IMG/VR virus record: IMGVR_UViG_3300048588_000110
Span: 1 to 40,332 of that record
DNA length: 40,332 nucleotides
Strand: one strand, 5' to 3'
Source of the DNA: a virus
Position 1 is the first letter of the stretch, and every line of letters begins with the position of its first letter. Under the pieces are notes generated by a model. It saw only the letters and a list, made by a program, of their open reading frames with translations, did not search any database and was not told where the DNA came from. Of this stretch, positions 4,104 to 22,396 are shown piece after piece. The position numbers and the translations under genes are program-made.

Positions 4104-4364
4104 TTACCAGCGCCCGATTGGGCATTTTTCTTCAATTACCAATGTTTTTTGACGGCACGGGCAATGACAAATTTTGCAGCTTATAACATCTTCATAGGCG
4201 CCTCCGCTGTCTGTCAATTGCAGTATTTTACTGGTGCCGGAATGGCCACATTTTGAACAGGTTCTCAAACGCAATTCAGAAAGTGCATCCAGTGCCGGGC
4301 TGGTATCGATGTACTTCAGTTTACGGCCCCAGCCGACCATAACCCGGAATAACCATTTAATCAT
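4104..4364 (-). CDS. Small zinc-ribbon-like protein
   Basis: With the start at the ATG 4364-4362 the product is 86 residues. It has CSKC at 36-39 and CKICHCPC at 63-70, a spacing that fits a zinc ribbon or similar metal-binding knuckle. The chosen start overlaps the end of the preceding connector-like gene by eight bases (ATGATTAA). The frame is open much further upstream inside that gene, but the upstream part looks like an antisense-of-frame shadow; an ATG at 4382 is the other reasonable start. It has no catalytic motif. Its place among neck and tail genes suggests a virion or assembly protein, but the function is unknown. Confidence 0.6.
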   Translation of the reverse strand: MIKWLFRVMVGWGRKLKYIDTSPALDALSELRLRTCSKCGHSGTSKILQLTDSGGAYEDVISCKICHCPCRQKTLVIEEKCPIGRW

Positions 4365-5049
4365 AGCATCCACAGTTTTCATCTTCGTCATAGATACCCA
4401 TGACAAGATTGGTTTTGCGTTTATATGGGGTACCATCAGCAGAACAATCACACGGTTTTCTATACAGCGGATAGTCTGCATAATTTTTACACAGCCAAAC
4501 GTGCAGGGCTTCCTGCAATGGGTCAATCCGGTCCATCAGCTTCTTATCCATTGCCCACTTCATGGAACCCAGGCCAGGGGTTACACTGGTGCCTGCTGGC
4601 GTCATAGCGCCACCCTGGGCCTGTTTATGTACAGCGCCCTCGCTGGTGAATTGCACAAAGCCCTCCGGAAGCGCCACCAGCATAACGCACTCTGCAATGA
4701 ATTTCCACAGCAGTTGTTTCCAAAGGTTTTGATTGGCAGTATTGAGAAACTCTGCTGCATTTACGATCATACCGGCTTGCAGTGTCACATCACTAGCGCC
4801 TGGATATTTGTCTGCATTGACTTTTGTCTGCAGATCAGCCAGGTTATCAGCGGTCACCACTGTATTCTTTTGATTGACCAGGTGTTCATAAAAGTCATAG
4901 CCCAGGGCTTGCCTGCCGAATCTTTCTTCCGCAATAATTATGGCATTGGAAATCATTTCCGGATCCAGGGTATGACCTTTGTGCGCATGGAAGATCACTT
5001 CATCCGTAGTAATCAATACAGGCCGCTGCAGGTTGTTTATTTTATGCAT
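4357..5049 (-). CDS. Head-tail connector-like protein (DUF6712-type, tentative)
   Basis: A 230-residue protein directly after the portal gene, a place usually held by head-tail connector or neck proteins. The N-terminal half (about 30-130) is helical, including ISNAIIIAEERFGRQALG and WKQLLWKFIAECVMLVA, as in helical connector folds. The C-terminus is rich in C and D with CDC and CGC pairs. The start is chosen as the ATG at 5049-5047 because a good Shine-Dalgarno lies six bases before it; a GTG immediately upstream would be too close. It overlaps the portal stop. The link to the DUF6712 family is from memory and uncertain; the connector role is inferred from position and size. Confidence 0.6.
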   Translation of the reverse strand: MHKINNLQRPVLITTDEVIFHAHKGHTLDPEMISNAIIIAEERFGRQALGYDFYEHLVNQKNTVVTADNLADLQTKVNADKYPGASDVTLQAGMIVNAAEFLNTANQNLWKQLLWKFIAECVMLVALPEGFVQFTSEGAVHKQAQGGAMTPAGTSVTPGLGSMKWAMDKKLMDRIDPLQEALHVWLCKNYADYPLYRKPCDCSADGTPYKRKTNLVMGIYDEDENCGCYD

Positions 5050-10042: not shown

Positions 10043-10267
10043 TCACACCCCCTTTTCCTCACATTTTTGGCAGGCATACCGGGCTTGATTTTCCGTCACT
10101 CCCAGCTTGATACTTATTTGTGCATAGCTGGCTTGTTTCTGCCTGAGCAGGCACACCTTCGCACTTTTAACAGCATCCGGTCCAATGATGGCAACAAATT
10201 GCGCCCAGTTGCTCATGGCAATTTCCTGCAGCTGGCGGTCCAGTATGGTCATTTTCTGATCACTCAT
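10043..10267 (-). CDS. Small HTH (sigma-region-4-like) protein
   Basis: A 74-residue protein whose C-terminal half (QASYAQISIKLGVTENQARY) reads as a helix-turn-helix like those of sigma-factor region 4 or small phage regulators, ending in CQKCEEKGV. It overlaps the stop of the tape measure gene by ATGA and is followed by the AT-rich gap in front of the protease gene. A regulatory role at the tail/head module boundary is possible, but small HTH proteins also serve as assembly factors or small terminases in phages, so function is open. Confidence 0.65.
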   Translation of the reverse strand: MSDQKMTILDRQLQEIAMSNWAQFVAIIGPDAVKSAKVCLLRQKQASYAQISIKLGVTENQARYACQKCEEKGV

Positions 10268-13200
10268 AAAGTGCCTGTTTTAATTTGCTTAACTTCTTTG
10301 TCCTGGGCTTCCGTTACGGTGGAAGTGCGCTGCACTACCTGCAGGGTGCGAACCTGGTTAGATACCGCTTGAATAGCCATTGCCTGCTCACGCATGGTGT
10401 CCAATATCTCAGCTGTCTGGTTGCCTGCTGCATCACTCAGTGATACTGCAGATGGAACGAATACCGGTGCCTGCAGACGCTCGCCTACCTGGCCACCATA
10501 CTCAAATTTGTTCAGCCTGGCGCCACGGTCAAATGCCACGCCACCACCCAGTTCATTTAATTTGCTGGCTATCTGGCTTTGAGTGCCGCTGATATTATAC
10601 GTCCGGTTTTTCGGTGCATTACGGGTACGGATAACCGCTAATTCATCTACCTCAGCCTCGTATGACTGGCCTTTGAAGGTGAAAGGGGTGCCACCCTTGC
10701 TATGAGGTTGGCCACCGAATTTACCACCCTGAGTAGGCACATCACCTGGCTTACCACCGAATTCAAATTTTTGCTGATTGATCTGGCTCACCGTATTGGC
10801 ATACCGGGCAATGGCCAGGCCTGAAAGCACGGCCCCCATGATGGCAGCTACAATAGGGTTACCAATGGACCACACGCTGGACCAGATATTGGCCAGTTCC
10901 ATCAAGAAAGCAATCTTTGCCTCCTTCCGTTTGGTTTCCTTTGTTTTCTCAAACGCTTCCTGTTCCAGCTTCCGCTTCTTTGCTGCATACTGCTTTTCAA
11001 TAGCTTCCTGTTCAGCTTTACTGCTGGCTAGGTTCATCACCTGTTCCTGCTCAATATCCAGCCGTTCAATGGCCAAGCTCAAACTATCCTCTATCCGTGA
11101 ACGCTCTGCATCAAAATAACCGTTCATTGCATCAGTAGCCAGGTTGTATGACGCTGTGATGGCATCTGCCAGCATCTTATCCTCATTGCTGCCAGCTTTA
11201 AAGCCGGATAATTTTCTTACTCCAATCTGCAGGGCACCCTGTACGCCATTGATCTCCGGACGCTGTGCATCTGGCAGTGTATAATCTGCAGCCAGTTCCT
11301 CCGCTTTTTGCTGCTGGCGCTTTACAGCATCCAGGTATTCATCCTGACTGATTAAGCCTTGCTGCAGCAGCTGTTTCTTTTTGGCTACTTCAATGTTCAG
11401 CTTTGCCAACTCAGCGGAAAGTATGGTACGGGTTTCAGTACGGTTGACTTCATCCAGCTTAAACTTCCGCTGTTCCTCCGTCAATTCATCATTTTCCAGA
11501 ATGGCCTGGCGTATTTTACTGAAATAAATCTCGTACTCCGTCAGCTGGCGCTTTTCAGCCCGGTCAATATCCTGCAGCTGGCTGGTAGCCAGGGCAATTC
11601 GATCAGCACGCAGTTCAGCTTCAATGGCCAGGATAGCCGCTTTGCGCTTGTCAGCATTTTCCCGGCTTATCTGGGTGAACTCTTTTTCCAGCTGGTCAAT
11701 CGTTTCATTGAACTTCACCTGGGCTGCCAGTATGGCTTCCGTTTTACTTACTTCAATCCCAGCACGGTCCTGGCTGCTAAGATTAGGATCCTGCAGGCTT
11801 ACAGTCGCAGATGATTCTGCCTGGGAGGTTTCTGCATCCAGCAGCTGTCTGGCAGCACGCTCACGCAGCTTGAAAATGGCCTCATTGGTTTCCTGCTCTT
11901 GCTCAATCCTATTAAGGCTCAACTCTGCATACTGTTTACGTTCCTCACTGTTCCGGGCTTTCAGCAGGGCCAGCTTTTTATCGATCGCCTGCTGGTTGAT
12001 CACCAGAATATTACGCAGGTAGGTTTCCTCGTCAATTTCATCCTTTAACCGGCGCTGTCTTTCTTTGGCCAGGGCTTCATCCCGCAAAGCATCAATGTCC
12101 TTAAACTGGTTTTGTATATCAACGTCCAGCCGATCAGCCCGGCGCTTGCCCGTTTTCTTTTCTTCATCCGTCACCACTCTACCGCCACCGGTTTTTTTAT
12201 CAGTTGTAGGCTTACCCAGCGCTTTGTCAATAAGCAGTTTGTTTTTCTCTACATCATTGACAATCTGCTGCTGCTCATTGATGTTTGCCTGCAGTATCTT
12301 ATCCAAGTCCCTCAGCTGGCTAACATTGTCCAGGCTGGCACCTATACCTTTGGCCGCTGCCAGGAATAAACTGTTAAGGAATGGGGTGTCAGTGGTTTCT
12401 GCCAGCTGGTCCAATATGCCGGTATCAATATCAGAAAGGTCCAGCCCTTTGCCGGTTTTTAATGCGAACTGCACATCCTGTTGAAGTGTCTGCAGGCTTA
12501 CCAGCTTTTGGAACTCCCGGGATGATCTCGCTGCAGCAGCTTCAGCCAGGGCTTTCGCATACAGTGCCTCATTGTACTTTTCCAGAATAGCACGCCCTTT
12601 ATCCATTTCAATGTTTTCCAGGGTCAGGCCTTTCAGGTATTCTGGGTTAAGTGCAATTAATTCATTCAGCGCCCGTTGACGGGTACCCAGCGCCAGGGTA
12701 TTATCCCGGATGATGCTGAGGTAAGTTTGCTCCTTTGCAATGGTTTCTGTGACGGATTTTCTGGCTTCATTCTGCAGTTCATTCATTATCCGGGCCTGCC
12801 TGTTTTGTTCCCTCAGTCGGTTGCTGGCTGCATTTAATGAGTTACCATAGGCCACCGTAGCAGCAGTGAGCAAGGTGATACCTGTTAAGATTAGCCCCAG
12901 TGGTGTCCGACCGATAACAATATTGAAACGACTGGCTGCAGCCGTCACCAGTGTATAGGCTCCATTCAGCAGAAACAATGCAATTTTTTGGGCTACCAGT
13001 AAAGGAGTAAGCAAACCCATCAGCACGTAGTTACGGGCAATGAGCAGGTTATACCCGATCATGGAAGCATTGAGTAAAAGCAGGTTTGCATTTTGGATAG
13101 CCCAATTCACGGCGAGTGCCCCCAATAATACCAGCAATGTAGGCAGGTTGGCAATCAGCAAGGATATGGAACCAGCTACGGCCAGCATCAGCGCCTGCAC

Positions 13201-14997
13201 GGCTTTGTTATTACCCAGCAGTTCAAACTGTTTCCTGATCTTATCCACGGTTGCTCCAAACGTCTGCTGTTTCTGGTTGGCGCCGTCAACGATCGCATTG
13301 GTATCTGCCAGGGCACCGCCTGCCAGTTTGATCTTTGCCCGGAAAGTATCTGCATTCGCACCCAAAACACCCAGGGTTTGAATTACCCGGATGCCACGGG
13401 CCTCAGCATCTGCAAAGTTTTTACTCAGTTCATCAAAGGCACCACCATTACCGCCCAGGTTCTCAGCCAGCTGCAAAAGTGCTTCCTGAGGCGCTGTTCG
13501 CAAGGTTTGCGTAAATTCCTCCACGGACTTGCCGGCCAGCTTTGCATACTTTGGAACGTCCTGGCCGATCTTACTTAATACCTGTACCACGGCGCCGCTG
13601 GAAACTTCACTGGATTGGCCCAGTTCTTCAAATCCTGCAGCCAGTCCCAGCACAGAATCCAGGCTAATGTTTGCCGTCCCGGCCACACCTGCCAAACGCT
13701 GGGAGAAATCAATCAGGAATCCACCGGATGCCACGCCAGCATTGGCCAGTTCCACCAGTCCGTTACCTATTGAACGAACGGCATCACCTGTTACTTTGCC
13801 ATCTTCCGAAAAGATGTTCACCAGTTTTACCAGGCTCTCCGTTGATTTTTCTACGTCACCCAGTTCCTTACCGGCCACCAGTACCAGCTGATCAATAGCA
13901 GCCGTCACCCCGTCAATATCTTCCGCTGCCACGCCGGCCTTCGCTGCTATGATGGCAATATCCGTGAGCCCTTGCAATGAGGTACGGGAATCAATCTGCT
14001 TTAAGCTGTTCACCACTTTGGCGGTCGCTTCCTCCGTAATACCCAGAATCCGCTGCAGGTCCACAAACTTATCGGACAATTCTGCATTTAGGTCAATGGC
14101 ACGCTGTACACCGCCCAGGGCTGCCTGAAAACCTACATACCCCAGCACGAAATTACTCAGCTGGTTTTTAGCATCTTTGAAGCCAGCTGCCAGGCTGGCC
14201 GTAATTTGATTACCCACATCACCAGTGCCCCTGAATTCTGCTTCTAATTTGCCTACCTGCTGGGTGAGTGCAATGGCTTCCTTACGGTTTTCAATGAGCA
14301 TGCGTTCAATAGCCTGCAGGCTACCATCACCGGCCACTTTGGTTTCAGAAAGTTCCTGCTGCAGCTTATTAAACTCTGAATTGAGGTCTGTCAACCTGGT
14401 TTTTGCTTTGGTTATCTGGCCACCTATCAGATCATCCAGCCCCATTGACTTAAATGCCTGCACGATACCGCTGGTATATTCTCCCACCAGCAGGCCATCA
14501 CGCTGAAACTGGCGCCGGAAATTTTGCTCTGCTGCTGCCAACTCCTGCAGCTTTTTAATGGCCTGGTCATACTGCAGGGTATTGCCCAGGAAAGTCACCT
14601 GGCCACCAGCTGGTGCAGCCTTCACCAGTTTGTACAATTCACGGTACTGCAAGTACAATTCATTGTAACTGCCTGCAGCTACTTTTGCAAACCTGGCTTG
14701 TTCCTGCAGGCGCTGCTTTTCCTGCTGCTGCAGCAGTGCCCATGCTTTGGCCTCATTCTGCATTTTCAAGCGCTGGTTACGCAATTCCTGTTCCTCCACT
14801 CGCAGCTTTTCCGTAGCCTGGCGCTCCTTTTCCAGTTCCTCACTGGTACGGCTACCTTTGCCGGCCATCTTATTCAGGGCTTCTTTATTTTTCCTGATCT
14901 CAGAAAATGCCGTATTGATATTGGTTAACTGGCCTTGCAGTTCCTCATAGCCAATGGACCGCAGTTCATAAATTTTTGTCAGTTGTGATTGTGCCAT
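10264..14997 (-). CDS. Tail tape measure protein
   Basis: A 1577-residue protein, by far the longest in the window. It begins with a coiled coil (about 1-140, LTNINTAFSEIRKNKEALNK), then a phage tape-measure core (about 290-590, with ITASLAAGFKDAKNQL and repeated AAKAGVAAEDIDGVT-like helices), a hydrophobic multi-helix segment at about 595-720, long charged coiled coils at about 930-1370, another hydrophobic stretch near 1400 (LMELANIWSSVWSIG) and a glycine-rich C-terminus. It sets tail length; at about 1.5 angstrom per residue this predicts a tail near 230 nm. The hydrophobic segments fit ejection into the inner membrane. It is the last tail gene in transcription order. Confidence 0.9.
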   Translation of the reverse strand: MAQSQLTKIYELRSIGYEELQGQLTNINTAFSEIRKNKEALNKMAGKGSRTSEELEKERQATEKLRVEEQELRNQRLKMQNEAKAWALLQQQEKQRLQEQARFAKVAAGSYNELYLQYRELYKLVKAAPAGGQVTFLGNTLQYDQAIKKLQELAAAEQNFRRQFQRDGLLVGEYTSGIVQAFKSMGLDDLIGGQITKAKTRLTDLNSEFNKLQQELSETKVAGDGSLQAIERMLIENRKEAIALTQQVGKLEAEFRGTGDVGNQITASLAAGFKDAKNQLSNFVLGYVGFQAALGGVQRAIDLNAELSDKFVDLQRILGITEEATAKVVNSLKQIDSRTSLQGLTDIAIIAAKAGVAAEDIDGVTAAIDQLVLVAGKELGDVEKSTESLVKLVNIFSEDGKVTGDAVRSIGNGLVELANAGVASGGFLIDFSQRLAGVAGTANISLDSVLGLAAGFEELGQSSEVSSGAVVQVLSKIGQDVPKYAKLAGKSVEEFTQTLRTAPQEALLQLAENLGGNGGAFDELSKNFADAEARGIRVIQTLGVLGANADTFRAKIKLAGGALADTNAIVDGANQKQQTFGATVDKIRKQFELLGNNKAVQALMLAVAGSISLLIANLPTLLVLLGALAVNWAIQNANLLLLNASMIGYNLLIARNYVLMGLLTPLLVAQKIALFLLNGAYTLVTAAASRFNIVIGRTPLGLILTGITLLTAATVAYGNSLNAASNRLREQNRQARIMNELQNEARKSVTETIAKEQTYLSIIRDNTLALGTRQRALNELIALNPEYLKGLTLENIEMDKGRAILEKYNEALYAKALAEAAAARSSREFQKLVSLQTLQQDVQFALKTGKGLDLSDIDTGILDQLAETTDTPFLNSLFLAAAKGIGASLDNVSQLRDLDKILQANINEQQQIVNDVEKNKLLIDKALGKPTTDKKTGGGRVVTDEEKKTGKRRADRLDVDIQNQFKDIDALRDEALAKERQRRLKDEIDEETYLRNILVINQQAIDKKLALLKARNSEERKQYAELSLNRIEQEQETNEAIFKLRERAARQLLDAETSQAESSATVSLQDPNLSSQDRAGIEVSKTEAILAAQVKFNETIDQLEKEFTQISRENADKRKAAILAIEAELRADRIALATSQLQDIDRAEKRQLTEYEIYFSKIRQAILENDELTEEQRKFKLDEVNRTETRTILSAELAKLNIEVAKKKQLLQQGLISQDEYLDAVKRQQQKAEELAADYTLPDAQRPEINGVQGALQIGVRKLSGFKAGSNEDKMLADAITASYNLATDAMNGYFDAERSRIEDSLSLAIERLDIEQEQVMNLASSKAEQEAIEKQYAAKKRKLEQEAFEKTKETKRKEAKIAFLMELANIWSSVWSIGNPIVAAIMGAVLSGLAIARYANTVSQINQQKFEFGGKPGDVPTQGGKFGGQPHSKGGTPFTFKGQSYEAEVDELAVIRTRNAPKNRTYNISGTQSQIASKLNELGGGVAFDRGARLNKFEYGGQVGERLQAPVFVPSAVSLSDAAGNQTAEILDTMREQAMAIQAVSNQVRTLQVVQRTSTVTEAQDKEVKQIKTGTL

Positions 14998-21037: not shown

Positions 21038-21498
21038 TAGGCATCACTTTTTTTAGGTACTGCCTTCATGCCGCCGACTGGCTTACCCACGGTATTTTCA
21101 TACCTGGCCAGAATATCCGCTTCCACCTGTTTACGCAGGCCAAGCGTTTCAGCATTCCATGCTTCGCTCATAACCTCACAGTCCTCCATCAAATCACTGT
21201 ACGCTTCCAGCTGCAGGGAAAGGTCCAGCATGCTGCAGTTTTCCAGATTGTTGTTTAGGATGCTATACTGCATCATGCTCACCGGGTCACCGGCTTCCAA
21301 TTCCAGAATAGCCTTGTAGTCTGCAATACGAATACCCAGGGCAAGCGGTGATTTTTTGCGCAAAGCACTCTTTGCCATTGCCATCCATCCGGGCGTCAGG
21401 CGCTCATGCGTAAAAGGTACTTTACTGAGTTCAGTGACCAGTTGGTCCTGCATGTCTTTTGCCAGGTTCATAACTGGCTTCGGGGATTGTGCGTTCAT
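21037..21498 (-). CDS. Hypothetical helical protein
   Basis: A 153-residue, mainly helical protein (LAKDMQDQLVTELSKVPFTH, LRKKSPLALGIRIADYKAI, EAYSDLMEDCEVMSEAWNAE) with a basic C-terminus. Family not recognised. Its ATG overlaps, as ATGA, the stop codon (21497-21495) of the -1 frame extension of the upstream tail chaperone gene, not of its zero-frame product. This coupling supports the frameshift extension being translated. Confidence 0.65.
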   Translation of the reverse strand: MNAQSPKPVMNLAKDMQDQLVTELSKVPFTHERLTPGWMAMAKSALRKKSPLALGIRIADYKAILELEAGDPVSMMQYSILNNNLENCSMLDLSLQLEAYSDLMEDCEVMSEAWNAETLGLRKQVEADILARYENTVGKPVGGMKAVPKKSDA

Positions 21499-22396
21499 TT
21501 TTTTCGTTTTTGTTTATTAAGCTGGGCTTCCTGGTCCAATGCCTGGGCCTCGTTTAACTCTTTTTCCTCACTGGCATACAGCAGTACATCAAAGGCGCTG
21601 GCTGCACGGGCGCAATCAATACTGTTCATATTGCTGCCAGGGATATCAAACACTTTGGTTTTTGCTATGCTTTTCAGAAAATTTATCCAGCCATAGCGCT
21701 CATAGTGGGCTGCACTGAAACGGCCATCTGATCGGACACGGCTCGGGAAGAAAACTGCAAAGTGTTGAGATATAAATTCACAGAACTGCTCAAAAAAAAA
21801 CCTACAGCCAGGGCTATATCCATAGGCAATTGTTTCATCAATTCCTGGCGCTCACTGCCTTCATACATAAAGCTGGCCTGGTACGGCTCCCCTTTCTTCC
21901 GGAAATAGATGGCTGCCAGGCATACCAATTGCTCCCACTTACTGGCGCCCAGATCAATCAGGTTTTTAATGATCTGTTTGGCATCAATAAATTCTCCGAA
22001 GGTCATTTCTGAACCTTGCTTTAATTCCGGTGGATGAATAACCCATTCCTCCCCCATAAACTGGTAGGACGGCTGCAGTTCAATCTGTGCCTCATGCTCC
22101 ATGACCTGGGCCACGTTGGCGTAATAGATTGATGCAATTTCCTCAATGAACTCACTGGCCTTTAATTCTTCTACGGTGAAGCCGGAAAAAAAACTGAACG
22201 TGCGGAACATCTTTTCAAACTGAAAGTGCATCACTTCCAGTTGTTTCTCAGGTCCTTCCGGCATCTCCAAAATAGAGGTGAGCATGGCATCCAAAAGGTT
22301 ACCATGCTCTTGCTGAAATGCTATTCGTTGCCCCAGTGTCATTTCAGATAAACTGCTGGGGAAAGTGAAAACCTTATTGTTGATTTTTATTTGCAC
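21495..22396 (-). CDS. Tail assembly chaperone, frameshift fusion product
   Basis: The zero frame runs from the GTG at 22396 to a stop at 21683-21685 and gives 237 residues (MQIKINNKVFTFPSSLSEM start). At 21802-21791 the minus strand reads GGT TTT TTT TTG. A -1 slip on the T run continues in an open frame for 99 more codons to a TGA at 21497-21495, giving a 300-residue fusion. The extension (HYERYGWINFLKSIAKTKVF, then DIPGSNMNSIDCARAAS, DVLLYASEEKE) looks like normal protein, while the zero-frame tail (SVSVQPTMSAMAG-like) looks random. Short and long products made by -1 slippage are the rule for tail chaperones such as lambda G/GT. The GTG start overlaps the preceding gene; the next in-frame ATG would remove the conserved N-terminal strand. 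Chaperone identity rests on this feature and position. Confidence 0.75.
21791..21802 (-). other. Slippery T9 run, programmed -1 frameshift site
   Basis: Nine consecutive T on the minus strand (A at 21792-21800), read GGT TTT TTT TTG in the zero frame. It contains the T TTT TTT heptamer. Both the zero frame (35 more codons) and the -1 frame (99 codons) are open beyond it. Ribosomal or transcriptional slippage would serve; an error in counting the homopolymer is the alternative. Confidence 0.7.

Follow-up and report, generated by a model that had tools for sequence, protein, structure and literature searches.

A conserved run of nine T at the -1 frame junction of a putative tail assembly chaperone gene in Bacteroidota-type phages

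Background

Recoding in tail chaperone genes is textbook ribosomal frameshifting, and short and long forms of one N-terminal domain encoded in a tail module are the signature of a tail chaperone. In phage lambda, gpG and gpGT form such a pair. The tail-module gene described here resembles G/GT in its short and long forms with a common N domain and in the -1 relation of its two frames, but differs in that its presumed slip site is a conserved T homopolymer found in any codon register, in that no sequence or fold match was obtained, and in that the tape measure gene is not adjacent.

Bacterial RNA polymerases slip with high efficiency at nine A or T (PMC5009743), and a 9A/9T length conserved among homologues has been described as a mark of purposeful transcriptional slippage (Baranov 2005; PMC1088944). 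Transcriptional slippage at approximately nine A or T is known from Thermus thermophilus dnaX, Shigella mxiE/spa13 and IS elements (PMC1088944, PMC5009743), where, as at the present locus, a conserved run lies at the frame junction and no stimulator was found. Those are bacterial or IS genes, however, whereas the present gene belongs to a phage tail module and to a very large family. Searches of the open-licence literature found no phage tail chaperone for which transcriptional slippage had been reported.

Results and discussion

Layout of the locus

The window, meaning the whole 40,332-nucleotide stretch analysed, comes from an IMG/VR virus record; its relevant features and those of related loci are listed in Table 1. 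Two overlapping frames in a -1 relation, giving N and N+C products as in lambda G/GT, predict a short and a long protein with residues 1-201 in common. The short form, which ends in an unselected tail, would result from normal decoding, and slippage on the T9 run, the sole homopolymer of nine or more in the window, would give a long form of 300 aa whose C-terminal domain, 99 residues in length, is conserved. The first-pass annotation had already described the T9 run, the 99-codon extension with its ATGA stop-start overlap, the 300-residue product and the filling by the extension of a 184-base gap otherwise free of genes; each of these is present in the sequence.

Table 1. Coordinates of features at the locus and in related elements (window positions unless a locus is named)
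Feature	Coordinates	Strand	Remarks
Zero-frame ORF, 237 aa	21683..22396	minus	start GTG at 22396; predicted short form: residues 1-201 common with long form plus 36-codon tail
T9 run (putative slip site)	21792..21800	minus	zero frame GGT TTT TTT TTG; context GTAGG-T9-GAGCAG at 21800-21792
-1 frame extension, 99 codons plus stop	21495..21794	minus	open 21794-21498, stop 21497-21495; joined to residues 1-201, predicted 300-aa long form
Upstream gene, 291 aa	22374..23249	minus	3' end overlaps slip-gene start; same neighbour in most relatives
Downstream gene, 153 aa	21037..21498	minus	ATG (21498) overlaps -1 stop as ATGA
Tail tape measure protein gene	10264..14997	minus	6.5 kb downstream of slip gene; PHROG 25337, E 2e-39
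Satellite-like element, ~15 kb	L067:2868-17112 (same region in L072)		genome from host family of Chitinophaga tropicalis
Separate short N-domain paralogues	L045:11898-12497, L066:6525-7181, L020:12462-13226		

Two groups of homologues

A first group of 30 split-frame copies (partly redundant) was recovered by scanning viral and bacterial collections; they come from IMG/VR contigs and from prophages, including those of Chitinophaga tropicalis, a Flavihumibacter MAG and Chryseobacterium lathyri. When genome contigs were scanned, a three-sequence alignment gave no match and a seven-sequence alignment gave three prophage loci. All 30 split-frame homologues contain exactly T9, in one register (G[GC]T TTT TTT TT[GA]), followed by a zero-frame tail of 19 to 55 codons and an extension of 88-103 codons, and the extension has homologues wherever the N part does. 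Only one other same-strand run of at least nine T occurs in the 567 kb of these loci, and the presence of T9 at the junction is far beyond chance.

A second, very distant group was reached with a structural model of a first-group relative (L046), whose fold search matched uncharacterised phage proteins, including one of Nonlabens phage P12024S. INPHARED returned no match to first-group proteins used as tblastn queries, and only the Nonlabens phages were reached, by the fold search. Profiles of the two groups align over almost their full length (hhalign, E 4e-10). The corresponding gene of Nonlabens phage P12024L (JQ823123) follows the terminase and carries T9 at the same -1 junction, in another codon register than the window; its extension has a conserved GW motif and includes the separately annotated 55-aa gene 41. 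Genes 40 and 41 of this phage (L073:23946-24640), annotated as two hypothetical proteins, are therefore probably one slippage gene annotated as two.

Members of the second group come from two cultured Nonlabens phages and from hundreds of environmental contigs; two overlapping scans gave at least 561 and at least 592 relatives, of which the best 80 of each were read. Among 172 loci read (redundant, and a sample skewed to sequences near the queries), the run was T9 in 126, T10 in 34 and T8 in six; in the other six the contigs ended upstream and the context was also T9 or T10. These sequences fall into 45 clusters at 70% identity and represent all three codon registers, and the offset at the junction is -1 at T8, T9 and T10 alike. 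Elsewhere at these loci 18 other same-strand T9 runs were counted in 733 kb, a looser avoidance than in the first group. A fold relative in Flavobacterium phage 6H (L074:9900-10927) has an extension-like -1 ORF and no T9, with a stop at a T6C run.

Selection on the two frames

Between moderately diverged sequences, dN/dS in the overlap is 0.05-0.5 in the -1 frame and 0.76-4.7 in the zero frame. Both the N part and the extension are under purifying selection, which on the extension reaches the run itself, and the zero-frame tail is unselected. The extension had been proposed to be real protein, which the dN/dS values and the homologues bear out. The zero-frame end had been judged not protein-like, and the values in that frame agree, although its length is 36 codons after the last common Phe and not the 35 given. 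Aligning homologues, the check suggested at the time, showed the T run conserved in all 30 split genes and, in the overlap, purifying selection on the -1 frame but not on the zero frame. On the tree (FastTree protein tree with Fitch parsimony), no third-position change was counted in any of the three slip-site Phe codons; at other conserved Phe columns the count is 5-11.

Fused and duplicated forms

Four homologues (L045/L019, L046, L066 (L058) and L067 (L062)), representing three lineages and one satellite-like element (L067), have a single uninterrupted frame and no T run. At the junction their residues are spaced as in the -1 product, with four between the flanking V/L and E/D. The fused L046 protein is confidently predicted to fold as one protein (AlphaFold2, pLDDT 94.6, pTM 0.89), with a helix of residues 191-211 bridging the junction. 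In two of the fused genomes, L045 and L066, the same pair of neighbouring genes also flanks a separate short gene paralogous to the N part (E 6e-15 and 2e-47); as an exception, no second short gene was found on the available stretch of L046. One genome, L020, has both a T9 split gene and a short paralogue. The short paralogue is thus present in two of four fused but only one of 30 split genomes, a modest excess (hypergeometric p ~0.03, hand calculation). Short and long forms therefore come about either through slippage or by means of two genes, which is what a need for both would predict.

A programmed two-product gene

The locus is almost certainly a programmed two-product gene, best read as relying on slippage at the homopolymer. 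That the slip was probably programmed had been proposed from the window, and the conservation of the run, the frame-specific selection and the fused homologues all point the same way. Because homopolymers are error-prone and single-frame homologues exist, a sequencing or assembly error, or a decayed gene, might be considered; however, other samples yielded near-identical contigs with the same T9, which is also present in isolate genomes and two cultured phages, and both parts of the gene are under purifying selection. An error is rejected above all because homologues with runs of 8, 9 and 10 hold the same -1 offset, and this explanation is considered exceedingly improbable. Homologues in a single frame, together with reads of 8 or 10 T, had been named beforehand as the outcome that would indicate an error; single-frame homologues were indeed found, but they lack the T run altogether and hence give no indication of an error. 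An independent start that would make the extension a gene in its own right is also very improbable. In the Nonlabens phages 55 aa of the extension are annotated as a gene, but the earliest candidate start in the -1 frame of the window lies approximately 140 bases inside the extension, most relatives likewise have no start near its beginning, and the fused homologues make one protein of the two parts.

RNA polymerase or ribosome

The slippage is probably mainly transcriptional. RNA polymerase would add a T (or drop two), and ordinary translation of such mRNAs would produce the long form. Four arguments favor the polymerase: nine T persist although seven would be enough, run length remains close to nine in every register, conserved RNA structure is absent, and the length agrees with the published nine-A/T criteria (PMC5009743, PMC1088944). 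The run of approximately nine T is of conserved length among homologues and independent of register across all three, and no conserved RNA stimulator accompanies it. Specifically, no conserved structure was found around the run (mean z -0.23 downstream and -0.09 upstream), and no Shine-Dalgarno-like element stood out upstream when inspected by eye. It had been pointed out from the window that a plain homopolymer would permit transcriptional slippage; the T run has proved to be the conserved element and is now the central point.

Ribosomal -1 frameshifting on the T_TTT_TTT within the run, which would follow lambda G/GT except that no stimulator accompanies it, is unlikely, although several points speak for it. 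A T9 run of any register unavoidably includes the heptamer in frame, so that ribosomal slippage would be possible everywhere; the one lineage with T8 uses the register in which the heptamer requires at least eight T; and the literature treats the known tail-chaperone shifts as ribosomal events (PMC5009743). The window's register, however, would need only seven T, yet there are always nine, and nine is the preferred length across three registers. The third slip-site Phe codon extends past the heptamer needed by the ribosome in the window's register, and one of the bases kept could change without altering the amino acid in the -1 frame. The lack of a conserved downstream structure and of an evident upstream element also argues against the ribosome. 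Taken as a whole, the reading of slippage on T9, mainly by RNA polymerase, giving a short/long pair like that of tail chaperones, appears fairly likely.

Possible function

The two products most probably serve a long-tailed Bacteroidota phage as its short and long tail assembly chaperones, a role suggested by the gene context, by the two-product logic and by a satellite-like element that pairs the gene with a tape measure. The syntenic module order is terminase, upstream gene, slip gene, several small genes, a 772-aa protein and tape measure. The chaperone label had been attached to the gene from the outset and is reasonable from context, but neither sequence nor fold searches connected the gene to known chaperones: Pfam and PHROGs returned no family match to the slip-gene proteins, described chaperone families included, and Foldseek against the PDB with the L046 model gave no match at E <= 0.001, and so none to solved chaperones. 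The gene thus appears to work like lambda G/GT while not being assignable to a described family.

The satellite-like element of L067 and L072 lies between ordinary host genes and contains integrase-like and replication-like genes, a fused long form, a tape measure gene and a small terminase gene (terS); no capsid, portal, large terminase or other tail gene was recognised in it. A 2026 paper reported that PLE satellites encode their own tape measure protein and a putative tail assembly chaperone (PMC12987554). L067 apparently resembles PLE11 in having both, and this pairing of the fused form with a tape measure supports a chaperone role. Unlike the present elements, PLE11 comes from Vibrio, and PLE chaperones resemble HK97 2OB9, to which the slip-gene family has no such match.

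A programmed two-product gene with another task, for example a neck or baseplate assembly factor, is rather improbable. It would accord with the absence of family or fold matches to chaperones and with the position of the gene among unnamed tail-module genes, 6.5 kb from the tape measure gene and not directly before it. Against it stand the occurrence, within a tail module, of a short and a long product built on one N domain, and the satellite-like element, the only place where the gene is near the tape measure, which keeps the two together without any other recognised tail gene.

A broader scenario for the chaperone reading, slightly favored on balance, is that a large Bacteroidota-type phage family sets its short/long chaperone ratio by polymerase slippage on T9, in place of the lambda-type ribosomal frameshift, that some lineages have moved to a fused gene with a short duplicate, and that a satellite has acquired both the long form and a tape measure gene. 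If true, phages can set the ratio of structural proteins at transcription, and split hypothetical genes in phage annotation would be explained. A run of T8-T10 between an N domain and a GW-containing C domain could also serve as a sequence mark for tail chaperones missed by current family libraries.

Between positions 5042 and 27061 (minus strand), the window has an unusual module order of terminase, slip gene, tail-module genes and tape measure, then protease, capsid and portal. An ORF near the portal gene (4104-4526) has weak relatives directly downstream of the slip gene in two other loci (L022:5479-5733 and L024:11397-11654).
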